DNA of 64,000 nt from Flavobacterium enshiense (GTDB lineage Bacteria > Bacteroidota > Bacteroidia > Flavobacteriales > Flavobacteriaceae): assembly GCF_022836875.1 (NCBI RefSeq), contig NZ_CP090376.1, positions 1,922,001 to 1,986,000 of the forward strand. Reading direction: 5' to 3'. Made by a program: the position numbers and the translations under genes. The first letter of the stretch is position 1; each line of letters starts with the position of its first letter. A model generated the notes under the pieces. It saw only the letters and a program-made list of their open reading frames with translations. It was not told the DNA's origin and ran no database searches. Positions 20,999 through 43,925 of the stretch are shown here, in pieces.

Positions 20999-21017
20999 TT
21001 TTTAGTGTTTTGTGTCT

Positions 21018-21114
21018 GCGTTAGGGATGGGAATAGCATCCTTTTTACGGTCGTTGAGGCTCTCGAAATGACCGTAAAAAGATAAAATGGACAGCCCGAC
21101 CTTTGTGGTAACGC
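21018..21114 (+). ncRNA. Structured intergenic element resembling Flavo-1 RNA
   Basis: Outer arms GCGTTA (21018-21023) and TAACGC (21109-21114) enclose a 12-bp perfect stem, CTTTTTACGGTC (21041-21052) with GACCGTAAAAAG (21070-21081). Flanking conserved-looking bits are AGGGATGG and ACAGCCCG. From memory this matches the dispersed flavobacterial element called Flavo-1, a conserved RNA of unknown function. Its conserved orientation is opposite to the surrounding trp operon. The family assignment is recall, not a covariance-model hit. Confidence 0.55.
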
Positions 21115-26860: not shown

Positions 26861-26893
26861 AAAAAAAGGCTTGTCGTGATTGACAAGCCTTTT
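26861..26893 (-). terminator. trp attenuator terminator
   Basis: On the minus strand AAAAGGCTTGTC and GACAAGCCTTTT form a 12-bp perfect stem around AATCAC, followed by a T-run. It lies between the trp leader peptide and trpE, so transcription must read through it to express the operon. Loop bases TCACGA (26879-26874) can pair with TCGTGA at the end of the leader ORF (26938-26933), the candidate antiterminator. Confidence 0.88.
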
Positions 26894-26932
26894 ATCTATG
26901 TTGTTTTTAAAAATACAGATAGGAGGATTCGC

Positions 26933-26989
26933 TCACGATTTTCGACGTAAGTTGTTCCACCACCATGTATTGTTTAAAATGTTGTTCAT
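26933..26989 (-). CDS. trpL: trp operon leader peptide with three consecutive Trp codons
   Basis: An 18-codon ORF, MNNILNNTWWWNNLRRKS, ends in TGA 40 bp before the attenuator hairpin. Three consecutive Trp codons in an 18-residue peptide are very unlikely by chance and are the hallmark of ribosome-mediated attenuation. Downstream of the Trp codons CTTACG (26951-26946) can pair with CGTGAG (26937-26932), a 1:2-type hairpin covering the end of the ORF. Stalling at WWW would mask the first arm and free the second for the antiterminator. The likely transcription start is about 13 bp upstream. Confidence 0.9.
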   Translation of the reverse strand: MNNILNNTWWWNNLRRKS

Positions 26990-27008
26990 TTTGTGTTTTT
27001 GTTTGATG

Positions 27009-27040
27009 CAAAGTTATAGAAATGATTTTCGAATACACAA
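27009..27040 (-). promoter_or_regulatory. trp operon promoter
   Basis: On the minus strand TTG (27040-27038), a 21-bp spacer and TAACTTTG (27016-27009) match the Bacteroidota TTG/TAnnTTTG consensus. The predicted start near 27002 places the leader peptide ATG about 13 nt into the transcript. Confidence 0.7.
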
Positions 27041-32128: not shown

Positions 32129-32265
32129 CGAAAAAAGAAGTTTTATTTTTGAGGACATGATTGTTTTTCTTGGATTTTCCATATTCTGTGAAGGTTTATT
32201 TTTGTTATATATGCGGAAAAATAAAGGCTTTTATGGGTAATAATAACAATTTTGCAAAATTATCT

Positions 32266-32295
32266 TTGATTAATAAAAAAAACTTTATAGGTTTG
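32266..32295 (+). promoter_or_regulatory. Promoter of the sulfate assimilation operon
   Basis: TTG (32266-32268), a 19-bp spacer and TAGGTTTG (32288-32295) match the Bacteroidota consensus exactly. Transcription would start near 32302, about 18 nt before the first Cys/Met leader ORF. This makes the longer upstream reading frame from 32161 untranslatable as one ORF. Confidence 0.75.
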
Positions 32296-32319: not shown

Positions 32320-32394
32320 ATGAAAAACCAAGTTTTAAATATGATGATGTGTATGTGCTGCTCAGACAATGAGGAGGGCTTTGCTATTCGTTAA
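32320..32394 (+). CDS. Cys/Met-rich leader peptide 1 of the cys operon
   Basis: A 24-codon ORF whose middle reads MMMCMCC (residues 8-14), followed by SDNEEG and a stop. Seven consecutive Met/Cys codons directly before a cysteine biosynthesis operon mark it as a leader peptide. The two adjacent Cys codons TGC TGC (32356-32361) overlap CTGCTCA (32358-32364). That segment can pair with TGAGGAG (32370-32376), with one G-G mismatch. The same TGAGGAG is perfectly complementary to CTCCTCA (32424-32430) in the terminator's 5' arm. This is the classical 1:2, 2:3, 3:4 attenuator arrangement. Confidence 0.85.
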   Translation: MKNQVLNMMMCMCCSDNEEGFAIR

Positions 32395-32420
32395 TATTTA
32401 AAATCATAAATATTCGGCAA

Positions 32421-32452
32421 AAACTCCTCAAGCAATTGGGGAGTTTTTTTTT
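32421..32452 (+). terminator. Attenuator terminator 1 of the cys operon
   Basis: AAACTCCTCAA and TTGGGGAGTTT form an 11-bp stem (one T-G wobble) closed by a GCAA tetraloop and followed by a long T-run. It lies 26 bp after leader ORF 1 and well before any structural gene. Confidence 0.88.
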
Positions 32453-32485: not shown

Positions 32486-32599
32486 ATGAATACAATAACA
32501 ATAGTAACGTCCATTATAACAACATCTGCAGTTTGTATGATGATGATGTGTTGTATGCGAAACTTCGCAGGAGGCCGTCTGTTGTATTATTTGAAGTAA
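32486..32599 (+). CDS. Cys/Met-rich leader peptide 2 of the cys operon
   Basis: A 37-codon ORF with CMMMMCCM at residues 17-24 after a Thr/Ile-rich start (MNTITIVTSIITTSAV). TGCGA (32556-32560), just beyond the two adjacent Cys codons (32549-32554), can pair with TCGCA (32565-32569). The next segment, CAGGAGGC (32568-32575), is complementary over 8 bp to GCCTCTTG (32622-32629) in the following terminator, with one G-T wobble. A ribosome stalled on Cys codons would hide TGCGA and favour the antiterminator. No separate promoter is seen, so it is probably in series with leader 1. Confidence 0.83.
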   Translation: MNTITIVTSIITTSAVCMMMMCCMRNFAGGRLLYYLK

Positions 32600-32619: not shown

Positions 32620-32648
32620 AAGCCTCTTGATTCCAAGGGGCTTTTTTT
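32620..32648 (+). terminator. Attenuator terminator 2 of the cys operon
   Basis: AAGCCTCTTG and CAAGGGGCTT form a 10-bp stem (one T-G wobble) around ATTC, followed by seven Ts. It lies 20 bp after leader ORF 2 and 25 bp before cysH. Confidence 0.88.
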
Positions 32649-32673: not shown

Positions 32674-33369
32674 ATGAATACTGAAATTATAAACAAATTA
32701 AATCAAAATCAGGACATCGAAGAAAACCTGAAATTCCTATCCGAAAACGTATCGGGAAAGATTGTGTTTTCAACCAGTTTCGGAATTGAAGACCAATTGA
32801 TTACCGATGTAATTTTCTCTCAAAAACTGAACAATATTGAAGTTTTTACTTTGGATACCGGACGATTATTTCAGGAAACCTATGCAACATGGCATAAAAC
32901 CGAATTGCATTACAGCCAGAAGATTAAGTCGTTTTATCCGAATACTGAAAACCTGGAAATCTTCATTAATGAACGCGGAATCAATCCTTTTTACGAGAGT
33001 CAGGAATTACGAAAGCAGTGCTGTCACATCCGAAAGGTAGGACCACTGCAAAGAGCTTTGGCAGGCGCAAGTGTTTGGATAACAGGACTCAGAGCGGAAC
33101 ATTCGCCGAACAGAAACTCAATTGAAATAGTGCATTGGGACGAACAATACCAGCTTTACAAATACAATCCATTGCTGCATTGGACAACCGAAGAAGTGAA
33201 AGTACATGTTACCCGAAAAGGCATCCCATACAACGTTTTACACGACCAGGGATTCATAAGTATCGGTTGTGCACCTTGTACCAGAGCGGTTAAGGAAGGA
33301 GAAGATTTTAGGGCAGGCCGCTGGTGGTGGGAAGAGGCTTCAAAAAAAGAATGCGGGCTTCATAAGTAG
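32674..33369 (+). CDS. cysH: Assimilatory adenylyl-sulfate (APS/PAPS) reductase
   Basis: A 231-residue PAPS reductase-type enzyme reducing activated sulfate to sulfite. Catalytic Cys227 is in the C-terminal KKECGLHK. Two Cys pairs, CC at 116-117 and CAPC at 199-202, are the [4Fe-4S] ligands that distinguish APS-using reductases from the Cys-poor PAPS enzymes of E. coli. With no cysC (APS kinase) in the operon, APS is the likely substrate. It is the first structural gene, 25 bp after the second attenuator terminator. Confidence 0.93.
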   Translation: MNTEIINKLNQNQDIEENLKFLSENVSGKIVFSTSFGIEDQLITDVIFSQKLNNIEVFTLDTGRLFQETYATWHKTELHYSQKIKSFYPNTENLEIFINERGINPFYESQELRKQCCHIRKVGPLQRALAGASVWITGLRAEHSPNRNSIEIVHWDEQYQLYKYNPLLHWTTEEVKVHVTRKGIPYNVLHDQGFISIGCAPCTRAVKEGEDFRAGRWWWEEASKKECGLHK

Positions 33370-34382: not shown

Positions 34383-35615
34383 ATGAACACATTAAAATTT
34401 ATAACAGCAGGAAATGTAGACGACGGGAAAAGCACCTTAATCGGTCGTTTGCTATACGATTCCGACAGTATACACACTGATCAATTGGGTCTATTGCAAA
34501 AGCAAACCAAGCAGGAAGGTGTCGAAATCGATTTATCAATGATAACCGACGGATTGCGTGCCGAACGCGAACAGGGAATAACAATAGATGTAGCCTATAA
34601 ATATTTCTCGACAAAAAAGAGAAAATTCATCATTGCCGATGCACCGGGACACGAGCAATACACCCGTAACATGATTACCGGAGCTTCCAATTCCGATTTG
34701 ATTATCATTTTAGTCGATGCTAGAAAAGGAATTACAATCCAAACCAAGCGTCATGCATCGGTTGGTTCGCTGATGGGAATTAAAAAAGCCATCATCGCCG
34801 TGAATAAAATCGATTTGGTGAATTATTCCGAAACGATTTTCAACGATATTAAAGCCGCTTTCGAAGCCATTAAGGGAAATCTTAATTATGATGAAATCGC
34901 CTATATTCCGGTAAGTGCGCTGGTGGGCGATAACATCGTAGAGAAATCAGAAAAAACACTTTGGTTTGAAGGCGATACGCTGTTGCAAACTCTGGAACAC
35001 ATCGAAATTCCCACTAAGGAAAATCTGGCTCCCCGTTTTCAGGTGCAATGGGTAATCCGACCGAAAGATGAAGAAAACCACGATTACCGCGGTTATGCCG
35101 GACAAGTTTTAAGCGGGAATTATAAAATTGGTGACAAGGTAAAAGTTCTACCAAGCGGAATTGAAACGACAATCGTAAAGATTGAAAAACATCAGCAAAT
35201 TATCGAAAAAGCGATTGCCGGAGAAAATGTGGTACTGCATTTGGCCGATAATATTGATGTCAGTCGCGGTGACAGTATCATTAAAACGGATAATCTTCCG
35301 ATTGCTTCCAATGAGCTGAAAACTTGGGTTTGCTGGCTGGATAATTCGCCTTTGCAGATTGGGAAAACCTATTTATTGCAGCATCGTTTCAGAACCGTTC
35401 GCGTAAAAATTCAGGAAATCGATCGGAAATGGGACATCAATGAGTGGCAGTTCAATGAGTCAAATGAAGTAAAACTCAACGATATAGGACAAATATCACT
35501 AAGAACAAACCAGCCTTTGTTTTTTGACGCTTTTACAGAAAATTCAAAAAACGGGAATGCGATTTTAATTGATGAGACCAATTTCAGTACCGTAGGCGCC
35601 TTAATGTTCTTATAA
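34383..35615 (+). CDS. cysN: Sulfate adenylyltransferase subunit 1 (GTPase)
   Basis: A 410-residue EF-Tu-like GTPase. G1 GNVDDGKST, G3 DAPGHEQY and G4 NKID are all intact, followed by beta-barrel domains. GTP hydrolysis drives APS formation by CysD. The length excludes a fused APS kinase (CysC) domain, consistent with an APS-reducing pathway. The stop is 1 bp before the cysE start. Confidence 0.96.
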   Translation: MNTLKFITAGNVDDGKSTLIGRLLYDSDSIHTDQLGLLQKQTKQEGVEIDLSMITDGLRAEREQGITIDVAYKYFSTKKRKFIIADAPGHEQYTRNMITGASNSDLIIILVDARKGITIQTKRHASVGSLMGIKKAIIAVNKIDLVNYSETIFNDIKAAFEAIKGNLNYDEIAYIPVSALVGDNIVEKSEKTLWFEGDTLLQTLEHIEIPTKENLAPRFQVQWVIRPKDEENHDYRGYAGQVLSGNYKIGDKVKVLPSGIETTIVKIEKHQQIIEKAIAGENVVLHLADNIDVSRGDSIIKTDNLPIASNELKTWVCWLDNSPLQIGKTYLLQHRFRTVRVKIQEIDRKWDINEWQFNESNEVKLNDIGQISLRTNQPLFFDAFTENSKNGNAILIDETNFSTVGALMFL

Positions 35616-35616
35616 A

Positions 35617-36432
35617 ATGAAACATCCCATTTACATAAAAAACAATCGGAGTGAAAAAAAATTACCTGATAAAGCGAGAACCGAAGCCTGGACCGAAGCC
35701 ATTTTTCACTGGCTCTTTTCGATAGTGGAAGGCTATGCTGATTACGATCTCTTCCTGAAAGAGGAAGCACAGCTTTGGTCGGCATTGACCGAATTACTGG
35801 ATAACGTTCTTACCGATAATGAAAGCAGATTCGAAACGGCAAACTGTTTTTTCGGCAAACTTGAAACGATTCACACACAATTGGAAGCCGATTTGGAAGC
35901 GGTCTTCAATTTCGACCCCGCGGCAAAATCGGTGAGCGAAGTATTGATTGCCTATCCCGGTTTTTTTGCCATAACGGTTTACCGATTGGCACATGAACTT
36001 TGGAAAAACAATATTCCGATACTTCCGAGAATAATGGCTGAATATGTTCACAGTAAAACCGGAATCGACATCCATCCGGGGGCAAAAATAGGCGAGCGTT
36101 TTTTCATCGATCACGGAACGGGAATCGTAATTGGTGAAACTTCGGTAATCGGGAACGATGTGAAAATCTATCAGGGAGTTACACTCGGGGCGTTAACGGT
36201 GAGTAAGGACAAAGCGGCAGAAAAACGTCATCCAACCATCGGAAACAATGTGACACTTTACGCGAACGCGACCATTTTGGGGGGAAATACAATAATCGGT
36301 GATAATGCCGTGATTGGCGGAAACGTTTGGATTACTCAGTCGATTCCCGCAAAATCTCTGGTGTATCATAAAAGTGAAATCATTATTAAGAGTAAAGCTG
36401 AATTTCCAGAGCCACTGAATTTTGTGATATAG
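35617..36432 (+). CDS. cysE: Serine O-acetyltransferase
   Basis: A 271-residue acetyltransferase forming O-acetylserine for CysK. The N-terminal helical domain is somewhat long. The C-terminal left-handed beta-helix shows hexapeptide repeats (IDIHPGAKIGERFFIDHGTG, then VIGETSVIGNDVKIYQGVTLG) with catalytic Asp/His in FIDHGTG. It ends in a short tail. It is immediately downstream of cysN. A 7-copy heptanucleotide array follows in the gap before cysK. Confidence 0.94.
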   Translation: MKHPIYIKNNRSEKKLPDKARTEAWTEAIFHWLFSIVEGYADYDLFLKEEAQLWSALTELLDNVLTDNESRFETANCFFGKLETIHTQLEADLEAVFNFDPAAKSVSEVLIAYPGFFAITVYRLAHELWKNNIPILPRIMAEYVHSKTGIDIHPGAKIGERFFIDHGTGIVIGETSVIGNDVKIYQGVTLGALTVSKDKAAEKRHPTIGNNVTLYANATILGGNTIIGDNAVIGGNVWITQSIPAKSLVYHKSEIIIKSKAEFPEPLNFVI

Positions 36433-36587: not shown

Positions 36588-37499
36588 GTGAAAGCGAAAA
36601 CTATTTTAGAAACCATAGGAAACACACCCGTGGTAAAAATCAATAAACTCTTCGGAGCAAATAAAAACGTTTGGATTAAACTGGAAAGAACCAATCCGGG
36701 TAGCAGTATCAAGGACCGAATTGCTCTGGCGATGATTGAAGATGCGGAACGCAAAGGAATATTAAAACCCAACAGCGTGATTATCGAGCCAACCTCAGGG
36801 AATACCGGTATTGGTCTGGCTTTGGTAGCGGCTGTTAAAGGTTATAAAGTGATACTTGTAATGCCGGAATCCATGAGTGTGGAACGCAGAAAACTAATGG
36901 AAATCTACGGTGCGCAATTCGAATTGACGCCTCGTGAAAAAGGAATGAAAGGTGCTATTGAAAAGGCCAATGAATTGGTCAGCCAAATCCCTAATGCCTG
37001 GTCACCGCAACAGTTTGACAATCCTGCGAACGTGGAAGTTCACGAAAGAACGACCGCTCAGGAAATTATAGCTGATTTCCCGGAAGGACTGGATTACCTA
37101 ATTACTGGAGTGGGAACCGGCGGACACATTACCGGTGTGGCGAAAGCACTGAAATCGAAATTTTCCAAATTGAAGGTTATCGCCGTAGAGCCAGAATTAT
37201 CTCCGGTCTTAAGCGGAGGTTCGCCTGCACCACACCCGTTACAAGGTATCGGAGCGGGATTTGTACCGGGAATTTACAACAACGAATTTATCGATGAAGT
37301 GGTTCAGGTTGGAAGAGACGAAGCGTTTGAAAACACCCGTAACATTGCCAAACAGGAAGGGATTTTGGTCGGAATTTCAACGGGCGCTTCTTTATCGGCG
37401 GTAGCTAAAAAACTGGAAACCATTCCGGACGGCGCGAACGTTTTAACCTTCAATTACGACACCGGCGAACGCTACCTTTCCATAGAAGGACTCTTCTAA
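36588..37499 (+). CDS. cysK: Cysteine synthase (O-acetylserine sulfhydrylase)
   Basis: A 303-residue PLP enzyme converting O-acetylserine and sulfide to cysteine. The PLP lysine is Lys42 in [11 protein letters not shown]. Other signatures are [15 protein letters not shown], the phosphate loop [13 protein letters not shown] and [17 protein letters not shown]. The start is a GTG at 36588; no in-frame ATG precedes the conserved [10 protein letters not shown] CysM-type assignment is possible from sequence alone, but the context (cysE, sulfate reduction) favours the sulfide-using form. Confidence 0.93.
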
Positions 37500-37558: not shown

Positions 37559-38395
37559 ATGCCTAAAAAAACAAAGGAAATGAAATATTTAAATAAAGGA
37601 AAAGTGATTTTAGCAGGCGCAGGCCCCGGTGATCCGGACTTAATCAGTCTGAAAGCACTCAAATATCTTCAAAAAGCTGATGTAGTCTTAACAGACCGTT
37701 TGGTTTCACCGGAATTGATTGAAGAATATGCCGATAAAAACGCTTTGGTGATTTATGTGGGTAAGCAATGTTCCAAAGGAATTCACACACCACAGCAGGA
37801 CATCAATGAGTTGATGGTGGAATTTGCGCTTCAAGGGAAACTCATACTCCGATTAAAAGGAGGTGATTCCATGCTTTTTTCCAATATTCTGGACGAACTA
37901 AAGGTACTGAAAGCCAATGCCATTGCTTATGAAATCATACCAGGTATTTCGGCCGCTTTTGGTGCAGCTTCCTATACCGGGATTCCGCTTACGGCAAGGG
38001 AGTATTCGAGAGGTGTCCGTTTTCTGACGTTGTATGATTTGAAAACCGTAGCACCCAGTCAGTGGAAAGATTGGGCTAATACGAGTGATACACTGGTTTT
38101 TTATATGAGCGGACAACGTTTGGATGCGTTGACGGAATCCCTTTTGGAAAACGGTATCAGTACCTCAAAAGGTATCGCTGTTGTACAACAGGCCACTACG
38201 CCAAACCAAAAAACAACGGTGTTTTCTTTTGAAGATCTGCAAACGAAATCCTTGCCCGAATTTGAATATGTTCCGACACTCATCATTGTAGGCGCTGTCG
38301 TGAATCTTCATGAGGAATTCTCCTGGATAAAAGAGAAAAACACTATTGAATCTTATTTCGATAACCATAAAAATACCTATCAAAATGCTATCTGA
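37559..38395 (+). CDS. cobA: Uroporphyrinogen-III C-methyltransferase (SUMT)
   Basis: A 278-residue SAM-dependent methyltransferase producing precorrin-2 for siroheme. The family motif VILAGAGPGDPDLISLKALK is near the N-terminus, then DRLVSPELI, ILRLKGGDSMLF and YEIIPGISAAFGAASYTGIP. The start is either 37559 or the Met at 37580. The 3' end overlaps the preferred cysJ start by 11 bp. Siroheme is the cofactor of CysI, encoded two genes on. The later dehydrogenase step is supplied by the fusion gene at 42471. A CTCGCTT/AAGCGAG hairpin (37529-37546) lies in the leader. Confidence 0.93.
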   Translation: MPKKTKEMKYLNKGKVILAGAGPGDPDLISLKALKYLQKADVVLTDRLVSPELIEEYADKNALVIYVGKQCSKGIHTPQQDINELMVEFALQGKLILRLKGGDSMLFSNILDELKVLKANAIAYEIIPGISAAFGAASYTGIPLTAREYSRGVRFLTLYDLKTVAPSQWKDWANTSDTLVFYMSGQRLDALTESLLENGISTSKGIAVVQQATTPNQKTTVFSFEDLQTKSLPEFEYVPTLIIVGAVVNLHEEFSWIKEKNTIESYFDNHKNTYQNAI

Positions 38396-40046
38396 AACTA
38401 AATTAACGCTATTGCAGCAACTCGTTCAGCAGGCTTCCAAAGAGGAAATCATCTGGACGAAAGGTTATCTGGCTGGTTTTCTGGACAGCAATCAACTTAC
38501 GGTTCCAACTGTTGAAACGCCAACCGCGGTAACGGTAAAACCATTGATTGTCTATGGTACCGAAACCGGAAATGCGAAGAAAATAGCCTCGCAATTGCTT
38601 ACGAACTTTAAGAAGAACAAGATACAGGCAAAGTCCACCGATATTTTTCAGTTAGATGTTTCGAAATTGGAGAAAGAAAGTTTGGTGCTTTTCATTGTAA
38701 GTACGCAGGGGGAAGGTGAATTTCCTCAAAATGCCGTTGCTTTTTACGAAAAACTGAAAGCCTCAGAAACGAATTTAAGTACTCTGAATTTCGCGGTTTT
38801 GGGATTGGGCGACACGTCCTATCCGCTTTTCTGTAATGCCGGTGTATTATTGGATGAGGTTTTGGAACAGAAAGGAGCCAAACGCTTATTATCCTTGGTT
38901 AAAGCCGATGTGGATTACGCCGAAACCGTAACGAAATGGGAAAACGATTTGCAGCAGGTGTTTTCGAAAAATGTTTCGCCATCATCTGTTCCGACACAAA
39001 AAAGTACTGCTTCTTCCGTTGGAAATAAAAAGAATTACAGTGGAATCGTTTCGCATAAAGTGGTTTTAAACGACAGAGGTTCGAACAAGGAAACCTATCA
39101 TATCGAAATCACGCCAAACGAAGAAGTGGTTTACGAACCCGGCGATGCTATCGGGTTTTATCCAAAAAACAATGAACATGAAATTGATGAAATTGCTTCA
39201 TTTTTTGATGAAAATGCTAAAAAAGAAATACTTTTTGATAAAAATATACGCGGATTAGGTAAAAAATCAATTCAATCGATTTCCGGATTATTTGGAATTG
39301 ATATCCATGAAGAGAAAGTAGATTTATTGGATATCCTGAAAAAATATCCCAAACCTGAGTCGGTTTCCTTCGATGATATCGTTACTGTACTTCATCCAAT
39401 TGCACCACGTTTGTATTCGATTTCTTCTGCTGCGAATGCGCATGATGGCGAAGTGCATGTGACGGTTAACCTAAACACATTTTCGGTTGACGGAACCACT
39501 AAAACAGGCTTATGTTCGCAGTTTTTGGCCGATTTTCCAAAAGACACGGAAATCGAATTCTACATCCACAAAAACAGCAATTTCAAACTTCCATCAGATG
39601 ATACGGATATTATCATGATTGGTCCAGGAACGGGGATAGCTCCCTTTAGAAGTTTCATTGCTCACCGTGATGCAGAGGGTGCGGAAGGCAAGAACTGGTT
39701 GTTTTTCGGTGAGCAGCATTTCGTGTTGGATTTTTATTATCAAACGGAGATTCAGGAATGGTTGGCTACAGGCACACTGGCCAAATTAGACACGGCTTTT
39801 TCACGTGACCAGCAAAAGAAAATCTATGTGCAGGACCGCATAAGGGAAAAAGCAAATGAGTTTAACCAATGGTTGGAAAACGGGGCGTCGATTTACATCT
39901 GCGGACAAAAAAATCCGATGAGCACCGATGTTGAAAATACCATAATCGAAGTGATTGCTTCCGAAAGAAATATCGGTTTAAACGAAGCCAAGCAGGTTCT
40001 GGACGATTTGGAAACTGCCGGTAAATATCAAAAAGACGTGTATTAA
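38385..40046 (+). CDS. cysJ: Sulfite reductase flavoprotein subunit
   Basis: A diflavin reductase of about 553 residues. An N-terminal flavodoxin domain binds FMN (VYGTETGNAKKIA, then VSTQGEGEFPQNA), and C-terminal FAD and NADPH domains follow (RLYSISSA, GPGTGIAPFRSF, YICGQKNPMSTDV). The ATG at 38385 (MLSETKLTLLQQL) is preferred over an upstream in-frame Met because it leaves only an 11-bp overlap with cobA. It transfers electrons from NADPH to CysI. Slightly shorter than the E. coli protein (599 residues). Confidence 0.94.
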   Translation: MLSETKLTLLQQLVQQASKEEIIWTKGYLAGFLDSNQLTVPTVETPTAVTVKPLIVYGTETGNAKKIASQLLTNFKKNKIQAKSTDIFQLDVSKLEKESLVLFIVSTQGEGEFPQNAVAFYEKLKASETNLSTLNFAVLGLGDTSYPLFCNAGVLLDEVLEQKGAKRLLSLVKADVDYAETVTKWENDLQQVFSKNVSPSSVPTQKSTASSVGNKKNYSGIVSHKVVLNDRGSNKETYHIEITPNEEVVYEPGDAIGFYPKNNEHEIDEIASFFDENAKKEILFDKNIRGLGKKSIQSISGLFGIDIHEEKVDLLDILKKYPKPESVSFDDIVTVLHPIAPRLYSISSAANAHDGEVHVTVNLNTFSVDGTTKTGLCSQFLADFPKDTEIEFYIHKNSNFKLPSDDTDIIMIGPGTGIAPFRSFIAHRDAEGAEGKNWLFFGEQHFVLDFYYQTEIQEWLATGTLAKLDTAFSRDQQKKIYVQDRIREKANEFNQWLENGASIYICGQKNPMSTDVENTIIEVIASERNIGLNEAKQVLDDLETAGKYQKDVY

Positions 40047-40077: not shown

Positions 40078-41727
40078 ATGAGCAATAAATTATCACCAGT
40101 AGAAGCCATAAAAACCAAAAGTGACGGTTTGCGAGGCACTTTAAAAGAAAGTATTGATTTAGACAATCACACGGGAAATGTACGTCCGGATGATGAAACC
40201 TTAGTGAAATTCCACGGAATGTACGTACAGGACGACCGTGACCGAAGAGCAGAACGCGCGGCTAAAAAACTGGACAAATTGTATTCCTTTATGATTCGGT
40301 TGAGGATTCCGGGTGGAGTCATTAATGCCGATCAATGGTTGGCCACACACGGTATTTCGGAAGAATTCGGAACCGGAACACTAAAAATTACGACTCGTCA
40401 AACAGTGCAATTGCACGGCTTGTTAAAACACCAATTGCGTCCGACGATTCAGGCGTTTAACACGGCTAAACTGGATTCGATTGCAGCCTGTGGTGATGTG
40501 AACCGAAACGTAATCGTGAGTTCGCATCCGCAACTTTCACCATTGCATCAGGAGATTTATGAATATGCCGATAAAATTTCAACATTGTTATTGCCTAAAA
40601 CGCAATCGTATTATGAGGTTTTTATAGACGGAGAAAAGATTTACGAACGTTCTTCGGAAGCCGATCCGTTGTATGAAGATCGTTATCTGCCGAGAAAATT
40701 CAAGATTGCTATTGCGATTCCGCCTTCTAACGATGTGGATGTTTTTACCAACGACATCGGACTGATTGCAATTATCGAAAACAACAGACTGAAAGGTTTC
40801 AACATTGCTGTGGGCGGCGGATTGGCAACAACTCACGGGAATCCGAATACCTATGCACGTTTGGGGTCCATCATCGGATTTACCGATACCGAAGAAAAAA
40901 CATTGAAAGCAGTGTATGAGATACTAACGGTGCAAAGGGATTTCGGTAACCGAGAGGACAGGAAGCTTTCGCGTATGAAATATACTGTGGATAAATTAAC
41001 GGTGGAAGGTTTCAAAAAAGAGTTGGAAAACCGCATCGGGTTTGAATTGCTACCCGAGCAGCCGTTCATTTTTACCGAAAGAAGTGACCGCTTTGGTTGG
41101 GAGAAAAATCATGAAGGGAAGTGGTTTTATACCTTATTTGTAGAGCATGGCGTGGTGAAACCATATCAGAAGCAGTTTTTATATGAAGTGGCGCAACTGA
41201 AAATCTCCAACTTCATTTTTTCCGGAAACCAGAACCTGATTTTAGGGGAAGTTGCGGATAATGAAAAAGCGAAAATAGATGCCTTGCTAATCAAACATGA
41301 AATTGACAAAAGCGACAGCGCACTTCGTAAAAATTCGATGGCGTGTGTTGCGTTGCCAACCTGTCCGCTAGCTTTGGCGGAAGCCCAACGGTATTTACCG
41401 GAATTGGTTACGAAAATCGAACCTATCTTGGAAAAATACAACCTTCATAATGAGGAGATTTCTATCCGAATGACAGGCTGTCCAAATGGTTGTGGCCGTC
41501 CGTATGTGGCTGAATTGGGTTTTATCGGAACCGGACCAGGGCAGTATAATTTCATGTTGGGAGGCGACCGATTTGGTGAAAGACTAAACAAATTATACAA
41601 AGAAAAACAGACGGAAGCAGAAATTTTAACCGAAGTCGACCATTTGCTGGATCGCTATACAAAAGAGAAAAATGAGAACGAAACCTTTGGCGATTTTACG
41701 TTCAGGAAAATCATTTCACAAAATTAA
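40078..41727 (+). CDS. cysI: Sulfite reductase hemoprotein subunit
   Basis: A 549-residue siroheme-[4Fe-4S] enzyme reducing sulfite to sulfide with six electrons. The Fe-S/siroheme ligands are CVALPTC (C-x5-C) and CPNGC (C-x3-C). The N-terminal FHGMYVQDDRDRR and TTRQTVQLHGL are ferredoxin-like repeat landmarks. It pairs with CysJ. Its end overlaps the DUF2490 gene by 56 bp. Confidence 0.96.
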   Translation: MSNKLSPVEAIKTKSDGLRGTLKESIDLDNHTGNVRPDDETLVKFHGMYVQDDRDRRAERAAKKLDKLYSFMIRLRIPGGVINADQWLATHGISEEFGTGTLKITTRQTVQLHGLLKHQLRPTIQAFNTAKLDSIAACGDVNRNVIVSSHPQLSPLHQEIYEYADKISTLLLPKTQSYYEVFIDGEKIYERSSEADPLYEDRYLPRKFKIAIAIPPSNDVDVFTNDIGLIAIIENNRLKGFNIAVGGGLATTHGNPNTYARLGSIIGFTDTEEKTLKAVYEILTVQRDFGNREDRKLSRMKYTVDKLTVEGFKKELENRIGFELLPEQPFIFTERSDRFGWEKNHEGKWFYTLFVEHGVVKPYQKQFLYEVAQLKISNFIFSGNQNLILGEVADNEKAKIDALLIKHEIDKSDSALRKNSMACVALPTCPLALAEAQRYLPELVTKIEPILEKYNLHNEEISIRMTGCPNGCGRPYVAELGFIGTGPGQYNFMLGGDRFGERLNKLYKEKQTEAEILTEVDHLLDRYTKEKNENETFGDFTFRKIISQN

Positions 41728-42463
41728 TAGTAATAGAACAGTAGTACTTGTAGTATTGTTGTTTTCTCAACTGAATCTTTTGGCTCAGAAGAACATGACA
41801 CATCAGCAACAGATTTGGTATGGTTATTACAATTCGCTGGCGTTTAACGAGAACTGGTGTTTAAAGAGCGAAATTCAGGAACGGCAGTTCATCAATCCGA
41901 CAGCGCAGCATCAGTTGCTTTTCCGTACGGATTTGGAATACAAGTTGGAGGGAAACTGGAATGTTTTTGTTGGAGGTGCATTCTTTTTACAGAGTCCGAA
42001 TGACCCTAATTCAGACAGTGATCTGGTTGTTCCGGAATTACGCCCGAATATCGGCTTCAACAATAAACAGAAACTTTCCTTTCTGACCATTTCGCATCGA
42101 TATAAAGCCGAAGCCCGTTTTTTTCATGATGTTGAAAATGAAGAGTTGACAGGAGGTTATCGTTTTTCGAATTTCCGGTTGCGCTACCAGTTAGGATTTG
42201 ATATTCCGGTTGTAAAAAAAGAAAATCAGGAACGAGTCATTCTGAAACTGAAAGATGAGGTAATGTTCAATGTCGGCAGTAAAATAGTTAAAAACTCCTT
42301 TGATCAGAACCGTATTTATCTGGCATTGAATTATATGGTAAGCCCTGCAATTGCTATCGAAGCCGGTTACATGAATTGGTTTCAGCAACAGAAATCGGGT
42401 GTCGATTTTTATAATCGCGATATTATCCGGTTCTCCTTTTTCCATAATCTGATAGTAAAATAG
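41672..42463 (+). CDS. DUF2490 outer-membrane-like protein
   Basis: A 263-residue protein with a signal peptide (VVLVVLLFSQLNLLAQ, about residues 23-39) and a mature part of alternating hydrophobic/polar strands (WNVFVGGAFFLQS, then YKLEGN, RYKAEARFFHD). This matches the DUF2490 family of probable beta-barrels with unknown function. The first Met lies 56 bp inside cysI, so translation is coupled to it. The operon position suggests an outer-membrane role in sulfur uptake, but that is inference. The long N-terminal leader before the signal is unusual and the start is uncertain. Confidence 0.78.
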   Translation: MRTKPLAILRSGKSFHKINSNRTVVLVVLLFSQLNLLAQKNMTHQQQIWYGYYNSLAFNENWCLKSEIQERQFINPTAQHQLLFRTDLEYKLEGNWNVFVGGAFFLQSPNDPNSDSDLVVPELRPNIGFNNKQKLSFLTISHRYKAEARFFHDVENEELTGGYRFSNFRLRYQLGFDIPVVKKENQERVILKLKDEVMFNVGSKIVKNSFDQNRIYLALNYMVSPAIAIEAGYMNWFQQQKSGVDFYNRDIIRFSFFHNLIVK

Positions 42464-42470
42464 AAAAAAT

Positions 42471-43925
42471 ATGAGTAGTACATTATTTCCGGTATTCCTG
42501 AAAACCGAAACCGCCCGATTTTTGATCGTTGGGGGCGGCAATGTAGGTTTGGAAAAAACGGAAACCTTATTAAGACAGAATCCCGACATAAATATAAAAT
42601 TGGTGGCCAGTGAAATTTCATCGGCTTTGAAAGAAGTTTTGGCGAAACATCCTCATATTGATTTTCACGAACGTCCATTTCAGGAAGCCGATTTGAATGA
42701 AACCGATTTTGTGATAGCAGCCACAAACAATAGAACAGTTAATGCCGAAATTAAGTGGCAGGCCAACGAACGGAAAATATTGGTCAATGCCGCAGATCAG
42801 CCGGATTTATGCGATTTCTACCTGGGTTCGATTGTAAAGAAAGGAAATCTGAAAATCGCTATTTCCACCAACGGAAAATCGCCTGTCTTGGCAAGGCGTT
42901 TGCGCGAACATCTGGAAGAAGCGATTCCAGATGATATCAATGAAAGCATTGAAAATCTGAATCAATTCAGGGACAAGCACAAAGGTGATTTTCAGGCGAA
43001 ACTGGCATTATTGAATGAAATCACATCCTCTTTGATTGACGACGAAACCCCTAAAAAACAAGGAAAAAAATATAAGAAACTGACGTTTGAAATTGCGGTG
43101 GTTTTCCTGGCGCTTTTCTTTGGTTACGGATTGTCGACGGTGATTTCGGTTCAGGATTTGAATTCTTTTGCGAGTGATATTCCGCCCGCTTTTTATGCGA
43201 TGATAGCGGTTGGTTTTTTTGCGCAAATGGTGGATGGGGCTGTAGGATTAGGCTATGGCGTGACTTGTGCCACGAGCATGATGTTGTTTGGAGTCAAACT
43301 GCCGGCCATCAGCGGAAGCATTCATACGGCGGAAATGTTTTCCAGCGGTATCAGTGGTTTTTCGCATTATAAATTCGGAAATGTCAATAAGAAACTGTTG
43401 CTGTGGCTGGCAGTTCCCGGAGTAATAGGAGCAGTGAGCGGTGCTTTGCTGTTGGTTTACCTCGGTAATAAATACGAAACCATTACCTATGCTATTTTGG
43501 CTTCTTATACGATGATTATCGGAATTCGCTTGATTATCATTGCTTTCCGAAAGAAAATAGTAAAACAAAAAGTGAGAAATACGGGGATTTTAGGTTTTTC
43601 CGGCGGACTTTTGGATGCTTTTGGAGGAGGAGGCTGGGGACCGATCGTGACCTCTACACTTTTATCCAAAGGAAGAAAATCAAGTTATGTTGTGGGAACG
43701 GTAAGTCTGGCTGAGTTTTTTGTAACCTTGGCGGCTTCACTGACCTTTTTTGCTTCGATAGGCGTCAGCCATTGGTATATAGTGGTTGGATTGATACTCG
43801 GCGGATCGTTGGCAGCACCGTTAGCGGCTAGAGTGGCAGGTAAACTTCCCCAAAAAACGGCAATATTGGCCGTTGCTTTTCTGGTAATTGTTTTCAGTAT
43901 CCGGATGTTGTTTAAAATTATATAA
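42471..43925 (+). CDS. Fusion: siroheme-synthase dehydrogenase domain + TauE/SafE transporter
   Basis: A 484-residue protein in two parts. Residues 1-195 match the CysG N-terminal NAD-binding domain (RFLIVGGGNVGLEKTETLL, AATNNRTVNAEI, LVNAADQPDLCDFYLGS, ISTNGKSPVLARRLRE). This domain oxidises precorrin-2 and may insert iron. From about residue 205 a TauE/SafE (TSUP) transporter of about eight helices follows, with GFFAQMVDGAVGLGYGVT and LGFSGGLLDAFGGGGWGP. It complements CobA to complete siroheme synthesis. The transporter half may move sulfite, sulfate or a related anion. It is the last gene of the cys operon. Confidence 0.88.
   Translation: MSSTLFPVFLKTETARFLIVGGGNVGLEKTETLLRQNPDINIKLVASEISSALKEVLAKHPHIDFHERPFQEADLNETDFVIAATNNRTVNAEIKWQANERKILVNAADQPDLCDFYLGSIVKKGNLKIAISTNGKSPVLARRLREHLEEAIPDDINESIENLNQFRDKHKGDFQAKLALLNEITSSLIDDETPKKQGKKYKKLTFEIAVVFLALFFGYGLSTVISVQDLNSFASDIPPAFYAMIAVGFFAQMVDGAVGLGYGVTCATSMMLFGVKLPAISGSIHTAEMFSSGISGFSHYKFGNVNKKLLLWLAVPGVIGAVSGALLLVYLGNKYETITYAILASYTMIIGIRLIIIAFRKKIVKQKVRNTGILGFSGGLLDAFGGGGWGPIVTSTLLSKGRKSSYVVGTVSLAEFFVTLAASLTFFASIGVSHWYIVVGLILGGSLAAPLAARVAGKLPQKTAILAVAFLVIVFSIRMLFKII

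Follow-up and report, generated by a model that had tools for sequence, protein, structure and literature searches.

The sulfate-assimilation and cysteine operon of the Flavobacterium genome considered here (cysHDN-cysE-cysK-siroheme-cysJI) is very probably regulated, to judge from sequence and folding models, by ribosome-mediated attenuation that follows the supply of Cys-tRNA and is exerted by two attenuators in series. The window, that is the whole stretch of 64,000 nucleotides analysed, contains two leader-terminator units in tandem upstream of cysH, with the operon downstream of them; the parts of these units, their conservation, the stall geometry and the fit between each region 2 and the terminator of the same unit are established here. 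The elements of the control region, with window coordinates and strand, are the following:

32265-32295 (+), Bacteroidetes-type (flavobacterial) promoter TTTG-N19-TAGGTTTG, assigned by motif
32320-32394 (+), leader peptide 1, MKNQVLNMMMCMCCSDNEEGFAIR, 24 codons, Met/Cys run 32341-32361
32358-32364 (+), region 1 (CTGCTCA), overlapping the Cys codons and pairing with region 2
32370-32376 (+), region 2 (TGAGGAG), antiterminator 5' half, assigned by pairing and folding
32419-32448 (+), intrinsic terminator 1, 13 pairs, GCAA loop, T run to about 32452
32424-32430 (+), CTCCTCA core of the terminator 1 5' arm, antiterminator 3' half
32486-32599 (+), leader peptide 2, MNTITIVTSIITTSAVCMMMMCCMRNFAGGRLLYYLK, Met/Cys run 32534-32557
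32556-32569 (+), small hairpin TGCGA-AACT-TCGCA directly after the leader 2 Met/Cys run, assigned by folding
32569-32575 (+), region 2 of attenuator 2 (AGGAGGC), with its partner GCCTCTT in terminator 2
32620-32643 (+), intrinsic terminator 2, followed by a T run

The first-pass annotation of this DNA had proposed one cysteine-sensing attenuator before cysH, and the elements on which it relied are all present: the 24-codon ORF (ATG at 32320, stop ending at 32394) with seven consecutive Met/Cys codons, the intrinsic terminator with a GCAA loop, and region 2, which pairs perfectly with the CTCCTCA core (7/7) or alternatively with CTGCTCA (6/7, with one G-G mismatch). In the folding model this alternative pairing of regions 1 and 2 has a probability of 0.85 without a ribosome. 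The proposal of a cysteine-sensing attenuator is supported by the conservation of its parts, by the match between region 2 and terminator and by the stall geometry in silico; the number had to be corrected, the attenuators being two in series. The second unit, leader 2 with terminator 2, lies within the 225 bases that separate terminator 1 from cysH, and a search of the 1-kb region returned two terminator-like sites versus 0.4 expected in shuffles, the second being that of leader 2. A protector hairpin formed by regions 1 and 2 is found in leader 1 of the window, and leader 2 has only the small TGCGA-AACT-TCGCA hairpin, which reaches a probability of 0.39-0.83 with a ribosome upstream and, in the model, is a possible protector of the leader 2 region 2.

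The promoter that had been placed at 32266-32295, upstream of leader 1, is recovered as TTTG (32265-32268), a spacer of 19 nt and TAGGTTTG (32288-32295), TTTG being what we take to be the consensus of the -33 element of the Bacteroidetes promoter. Of the 24 loci whose leaders were called by script, 21 have the full motif upstream of leader 1 and 23 have the -7 element there, the background in the window being about 0.04 full motifs per 115 nt. The motif is absent from the spacer that separates terminator 1 from leader 2 (21 loci scanned) and from that between the last terminator and cysH (24 loci scanned), and both units and the operon are predicted to share one transcript with a single start before leader 1. 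A TAnnTTTG element has been described for the Bacteroidetes promoter (PMC9723704). In the window the motif ends at 32295, 24 nt 5' of the leader 1 ATG, and a leadered start is predicted. The start context of the leaders is A-rich: of 45 starts chosen by script, 37 have A at -3, which is reported to favour initiation in F. johnsoniae (PMC6847099). Region 2 of both leaders resembles a strong Shine-Dalgarno sequence (GAGGAG in 32370-32376 and AGGAGG in 32569-32575), an element reported as ignored by Bacteroidia ribosomes (PMC9976891).

The genes from cysH to the siroheme synthase-TauE fusion lie on one strand throughout:

32674-33369 (+), cysH, phosphoadenylyl/adenylyl-sulfate reductase, operon gene 1, above cut-off for NF002537 and TIGR02055
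33430-34335 (+), cysD
34383-35615 (+), cysN
35617-36432 (+), serine O-acetyltransferase, EpsC model above cut-off and cysE model below cut-off
36588-37499 (+), cysteine synthase cysK
37559-38395 (+), uroporphyrinogen-III C-methyltransferase (siroheme)
38346-40046 (+), cysJ-like sulfite reductase flavoprotein, below the equivalog cut-off
40078-41727 (+), cysI, sulfite reductase hemoprotein, NF010029 above cut-off
41672-42463 (+), DUF2490 protein
42471-43925 (+), fusion of a siroheme synthase N-terminal domain and a TauE/SafE sulfite-exporter domain

Cysteine is the product of this operon and matches the regulatory codons of the leaders that precede it. Among named CysH proteins, the F. enshiense one is nearest to that of the window (88% identity). 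Between 32.2 and 32.7 kb no Rfam family reaches its gathering score, the weak matches being far below theirs. The only match of the window to the Bacteroid-trp leader (RF01692, 64 bits) is at 26882-27009 (-), and the presence of this tryptophan attenuator indicates that attenuation is probably a mechanism at home in this genome. The window also contains a Flavo-1 RNA (RF01705), a motif without known function, at 21009-21105 (+).

In the proposed mechanism, transcription would begin once, upstream of leader 1. With ample cysteinyl-tRNA, the ribosome would cross the Met/Cys codons onto region 2, leaving the terminator 5' arm free, and RNA polymerase would stop; a shortage of cysteinyl-tRNA, and perhaps of methionyl-tRNA, would stall the ribosome in the Met/Cys run with region 2 free to pair with the terminator 5' arm before the 3' arm is made, and the polymerase would read on. 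Leader 2 would repeat the decision of leader 1, and two equal switches in series would multiply repression and make induction steeper. We infer stalling, read-through, cysteine as the signal and the multiplicative effect, with Met shortage perhaps as an additional signal; the Cys codon runs in both leaders point to one shared signal.

The geometry of the leaders is consistent with this mechanism. In the folding model the ribosome is assumed to cover the positions from P-15 to P+14, the size of a ribosome footprint, and the transcript ends just past the terminator 5' arm. For 51 attenuators, on the transcript before the 3' arm, the median antiterminator probability is 0.95 when the ribosome stalls on the first Cys of the run, 0.0 with the ribosome at the stop codon and 0.56 with no ribosome, and, given this last value, termination without translation is no general prediction. 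In 46 of the 51 the antiterminator is more probable with the stall than with the ribosome at the stop, pairing across the ribosome being allowed (the "downstream only" stop values, zero by construction, were not used), and the five exceptions all belong to leader 2 of clade A, the clade of the window (L002, L053, L054, L162, L166). In clade-A leader 2 the stop codon is mostly about 21 nt (12-24) behind region 2, so that a ribosome at the stop would hardly cover it. When the ribosome is advanced one codon at a time along the window leaders, antiterminator 1 keeps a probability of at least 0.85 as far as the last Cys codon and falls to 0.00 two codons on; antiterminator 2 keeps at least 0.91 as far as the final Met of its run and falls to 0.00 three codons on. 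The last stall codon to permit the antiterminator is, in all 51 modelled leaders, the last Cys codon itself or one of the next four (0-4 codons), a result in which the search for region 2, started after the last Cys codon, bounds how early the limit falls, not how late. If the full leader 1, with the 3' arm of its terminator, is taken to folding equilibrium, the probability of the terminator is 0.98-1.00 wherever the ribosome stands, stalls included; the switch must therefore be kinetic, the antiterminator presumably forming first and lasting long enough.

A further line of evidence is the match between region 2 and its own terminator. The stretch after the last Cys codon was paired with the terminator 5' arm and compared with 300 dinucleotide shuffles in 51 attenuators, leaving out the same-species duplicates L052, L160 and L161, and also leaving out L167, whose leaders were called only by eye. 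The pairing beats the shuffles at p<=0.05 in 40 of the 51, a count in which related orthologs are not independent, and no reliance is placed on a Fisher combination, which assumes independence. Both window pairings beat the shuffles, with p of 0.01 and 0.003. The 11 pairings that are no better than shuffles at 0.05 are those of Apibacter (0.67), seven clade-B leader 1 sequences (0.09-0.26), leader 1 of L162 (0.08) and leader 2 of L007 and of L168 (0.19 each). The pairs change together from group to group and can be recognised by eye as TGAGGAG/CTCCTCA, AAGAGGC/GCCTCTT, GCAGAGG/CCTCTGC, AAGGAGC/GCTCCTT, and CCGAAG/CTTCGG. When the arms of 15 representatives were exchanged, the mean with the own arm was -12.2 versus a permuted mean of -8.6 (sd 0.72) and none of 100,000 permutations was as low, a p of about 1e-5 that is indicative because some representatives are related; five of the 15 have their own arm as the best in the row, and the fit is poor for leader 2 of L007, both leaders of L168, and Apibacter.

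Covariation of the antiterminator, which the first-pass annotation had expected among relatives, is found as one compensatory change in the closest orthologs and, as the stronger sign, as the matching pairs across groups; it is weak inside orthologous sets. In particular, in clade-A leader 1 (11 sequences) the antiterminator has 94.8% of cells paired with one two-sided change (L054), 29 of 500 shuffles being as high, and the terminator has 99.0% of cells paired with three two-sided changes, 2 of 500 shuffles being as high. In clade-B leader 1 (12 sequences) the antiterminator helix is 91.7% paired, and the terminator is 100% paired, yet 276 of 500 shuffles are as high. A small AU hairpin of clade B, between region 2 and the terminator, was considered as a conserved helix and set aside, with 61.9% of cells paired. 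Leader 2 of L004, L163, and L165 has another antiterminator design, in which the terminator offers its loop side (GGTAATAG) as the pairing partner of CTATTACC or CTATTGCC. In L070, L074, and L078, from Saprospiraceae and Chitinophagales, an RSGC motif follows six Cys codons and its codons form the antiterminator.

Short ORFs are easily found by eye, and the leaders could be chance ORFs or unrelated small proteins in front of constitutive terminators; this explanation is hardly credible and is largely refuted by the specificity of the leaders for the region upstream of cysH and by antiterminators that match their own terminators. A loose scan, which required a short ATG ORF with at least three of six codons Met/Cys, including at least two Cys, and a hairpin with a T run within about 120 nt of the ORF, was run on both strands of the window plus 1.2 Mb of the same 3.25-Mb genome (39% of the genome). 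It returned five matches, two before cysH and three weaker ones with 3-4 of 6 Met/Cys codons; six of six was reached only by the two ORFs before cysH. A stricter scan (4/7 codons) of 109 loci around cysH genes, totalling 1.23 Mb with both strands counted, gave 16 matches in 11 loci, every one on the sense strand and upstream of cysH, versus no match in the reversed sequences of the same 109 loci. A chance ORF is ruled out by the loose scan over 39% of the genome together with the empty reversed control.

The tandem layout is conserved in a clade of Flavobacterium. CysH is found at E<=1e-95 in 24 of 398 Flavobacterium genomes, and 20 of these 24 have two leader-terminator units, 19 by script and one (L167) by eye, with weaker hairpins; L009, L171, and L173, the last with a broken cysH, have one leader by script, and L010 has none. 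Two genomes retrieved under their species names, F. humi (L054) and F. supellecticarium (L055), are also tandem, which brings the total to 22 genomes of the set (21 by script, one by eye). It could be argued that the two leaders sense different things, or that one is active and the other is a relic of duplication: one leader is called in the three loci just named, the terminators of L167 are weak, and in some tandem genomes one or both pairings are no better than shuffles, both in L007. Such a division of roles is unlikely, as each leader in all 19 script-called tandem genomes keeps at least two Cys codons and a terminator and both pairings of the window exceed the shuffled ones.

The sequences of the leader peptides vary (MKNQVLNMMMCMCC, MIFTVCNMCCCMGKISA, MSNTITNKMFACCCKKCC, MACCCCCC), with Cys runs and terminators retained, and outside the Cys/Met run the peptides are not conserved between leader groups. 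This bears on whether the peptides could act as nascent-chain sensors of copper, oxidants or thiol-reactive electrophiles that operate the same downstream RNA switch. Short Met/Cys-rich peptides suit metal or thiol chemistry, and a nascent-chain sensor could employ the same alternative hairpins; known arrest peptides are conserved in sequence, and these are not outside the run, the controlled genes make cysteine, and the end of the Cys run is the point where a codon-level stall loses compatibility with the antiterminator, all of which makes such a sensor very improbable. Methionine could instead be the main signal in the clade of the window, where Met codons make up 4/7 and 5/8 of the runs: the Met runs are conserved in clade A, and modelled stalls at Met codons also permit both window antiterminators. 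The other clades, however, keep the Cys codons and have few Met codons, and since Met is needed for initiation its shortage would presumably strike initiation first; methionine as the main signal is accordingly quite unlikely, and the supply of Cys-tRNA is preferred as the signal.

The first-pass expectation of a Cys/Met run and terminator before cysH orthologs held in the Flavobacterium clade and failed at most loci examined outside it. In 20 loci with a more distant CysH (L011-L030) no leader is present in the 900 bases before cysH. A class-wide sample of 68 further Bacteroidia upstream stretches, drawn from 75 CysH genomes with G796, G914, and G879 left out and with four stretches shortened by contig ends (66, 61, 816, and 853 nt), contains no leader either, so that the leader is no longer proposed as a general feature of Bacteroidia. 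All three Saprospiraceae examined (L070, L078, L094), one Chitinophagales bin (L074) and one unplaced Bacteroidetes bin (L066) have a single poly-Cys leader before cysH, and Apibacter muscae (L056) has a weaker one; among 80 named cysH loci leaders are found in 11, six single and five in named tandem Flavobacterium. In a CysH tree of 71 chosen rows, one group (99/98) holds 22 tandem rows, three single rows and one leaderless row, and another (100/98) holds the Saprospiraceae/Chitinophagales leaders with two rows that lack a leader, Hymenobacter among them; for the single state the tree forces at least three changes, with gains and losses indistinguishable. Five loci form one CysH group (100/98) in which L004, L163, and L165 have clade-B leaders and L005 and L166 have clade-A leaders, so that the control region has apparently been exchanged or rewritten with the tandem layout kept.

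Attenuation is a known principle, and cysteine leaders have precedents in Actinobacteria and Rhodobacterales. The trp/his-type attenuators, including Bacteroid-trp (RF01692), share with the cysH leaders a run of end-product codons, an antiterminator and an intrinsic terminator, whereas here the amino acid is cysteine (plus Met) and two units are in series; the RF01692 covariance model gave no match at 32.2-32.7 kb. Poly-Cys leader peptides before cysteine genes have likewise been described as polycysteine short ORFs in mycobacteria (Canestrari et al. 2020, via PMC13236596) and predicted in 2005 for Actinobacteria (PMC1262725). There the start is leaderless, with the transcript beginning at the ATG, translational control is described, and a conserved terminator hairpin was not found, whereas the cysH leaders have a predicted leadered start, terminators and matched antiterminators. 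The uORFC-8-2 element before cysS in Rhodobacterales has, as here, tandem Cys codons, a terminator and a predicted ribosome-mediated attenuation, but it belongs to another phylum, to cysS and to a single attenuator rather than to cysH of Flavobacterium and to two (PMC8632094). Two leader ORFs in one leader RNA are also found in the mgtCBR operon of Salmonella, where they answer two signals (ATP and proline) and the stem-loops are unlike intrinsic terminators (PMC3641672), whereas both ORFs before cysH contain Cys codons and each is followed by an intrinsic terminator. Structured 5' regions of F. psychrophilum with clues of leader-peptide attenuation before amino-acid biosynthesis operons resemble the present ones, and the main-text section that treats them names no cysteine operon (PMC9723704); part of the finding on the cysH leaders may already be listed in the supplement of that paper. 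In the open literature, with subscription papers mostly outside this search, nothing was found on cysteine leader attenuators in Bacteroidota and no case of two same-signal leader-peptide attenuators in series.

The leaders thus offer a concrete candidate regulator of sulfate assimilation for a clade of Bacteroidota and a natural design for what two like attenuators add over one, i.e., deeper shut-off, steeper induction or both; moreover, as the tandem layout persists while peptides and hairpins change, it can reveal which parts of an attenuator are held by selection.

Other Flavobacterium seem to rely on a different control of cysH. All 15 of the 8-kb stretches from such genomes (L036-L050) have a gene for an Rrf2-family regulator (PF02082) upstream of cysH, as do 6 of the 20 loci L011-L030, for which 1.5 kb upstream were covered; the gene was found in none of the 28 short leader-type loci (L001-L010 and the L160-L173 group) and in none of the five longer ones, and the 64-kb window has no convincing Rrf2 match. 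The contrast between 15 of 15 and none in leader-type loci suggests that one kind of control replaced the other, and from the gene neighbourhoods leader control and Rrf2 control seem mutually exclusive. A broader proposal, in which tandem attenuators for the same amino acid form a multiplying switch, stand in for Rrf2 and act in the clade of the window as joint Met/Cys sensors, is put forward tentatively, as a plausible possibility somewhat short of probable. If true, the clade would keep two attenuators in series despite sequence turnover and would respond steeply to a shortage of sulfur amino acids. In L050 (G123:C1:2125400-2133500, minus strand) the Rrf2 gene just upstream of cysH is itself preceded by a Met/Cys leader, MRINNLNMVMCMCKCFSKEE, and a terminator; this leader is the only leader match in the 15 Rrf2-type stretches, and the attenuator appears to be placed there on the regulator rather than on cysH.
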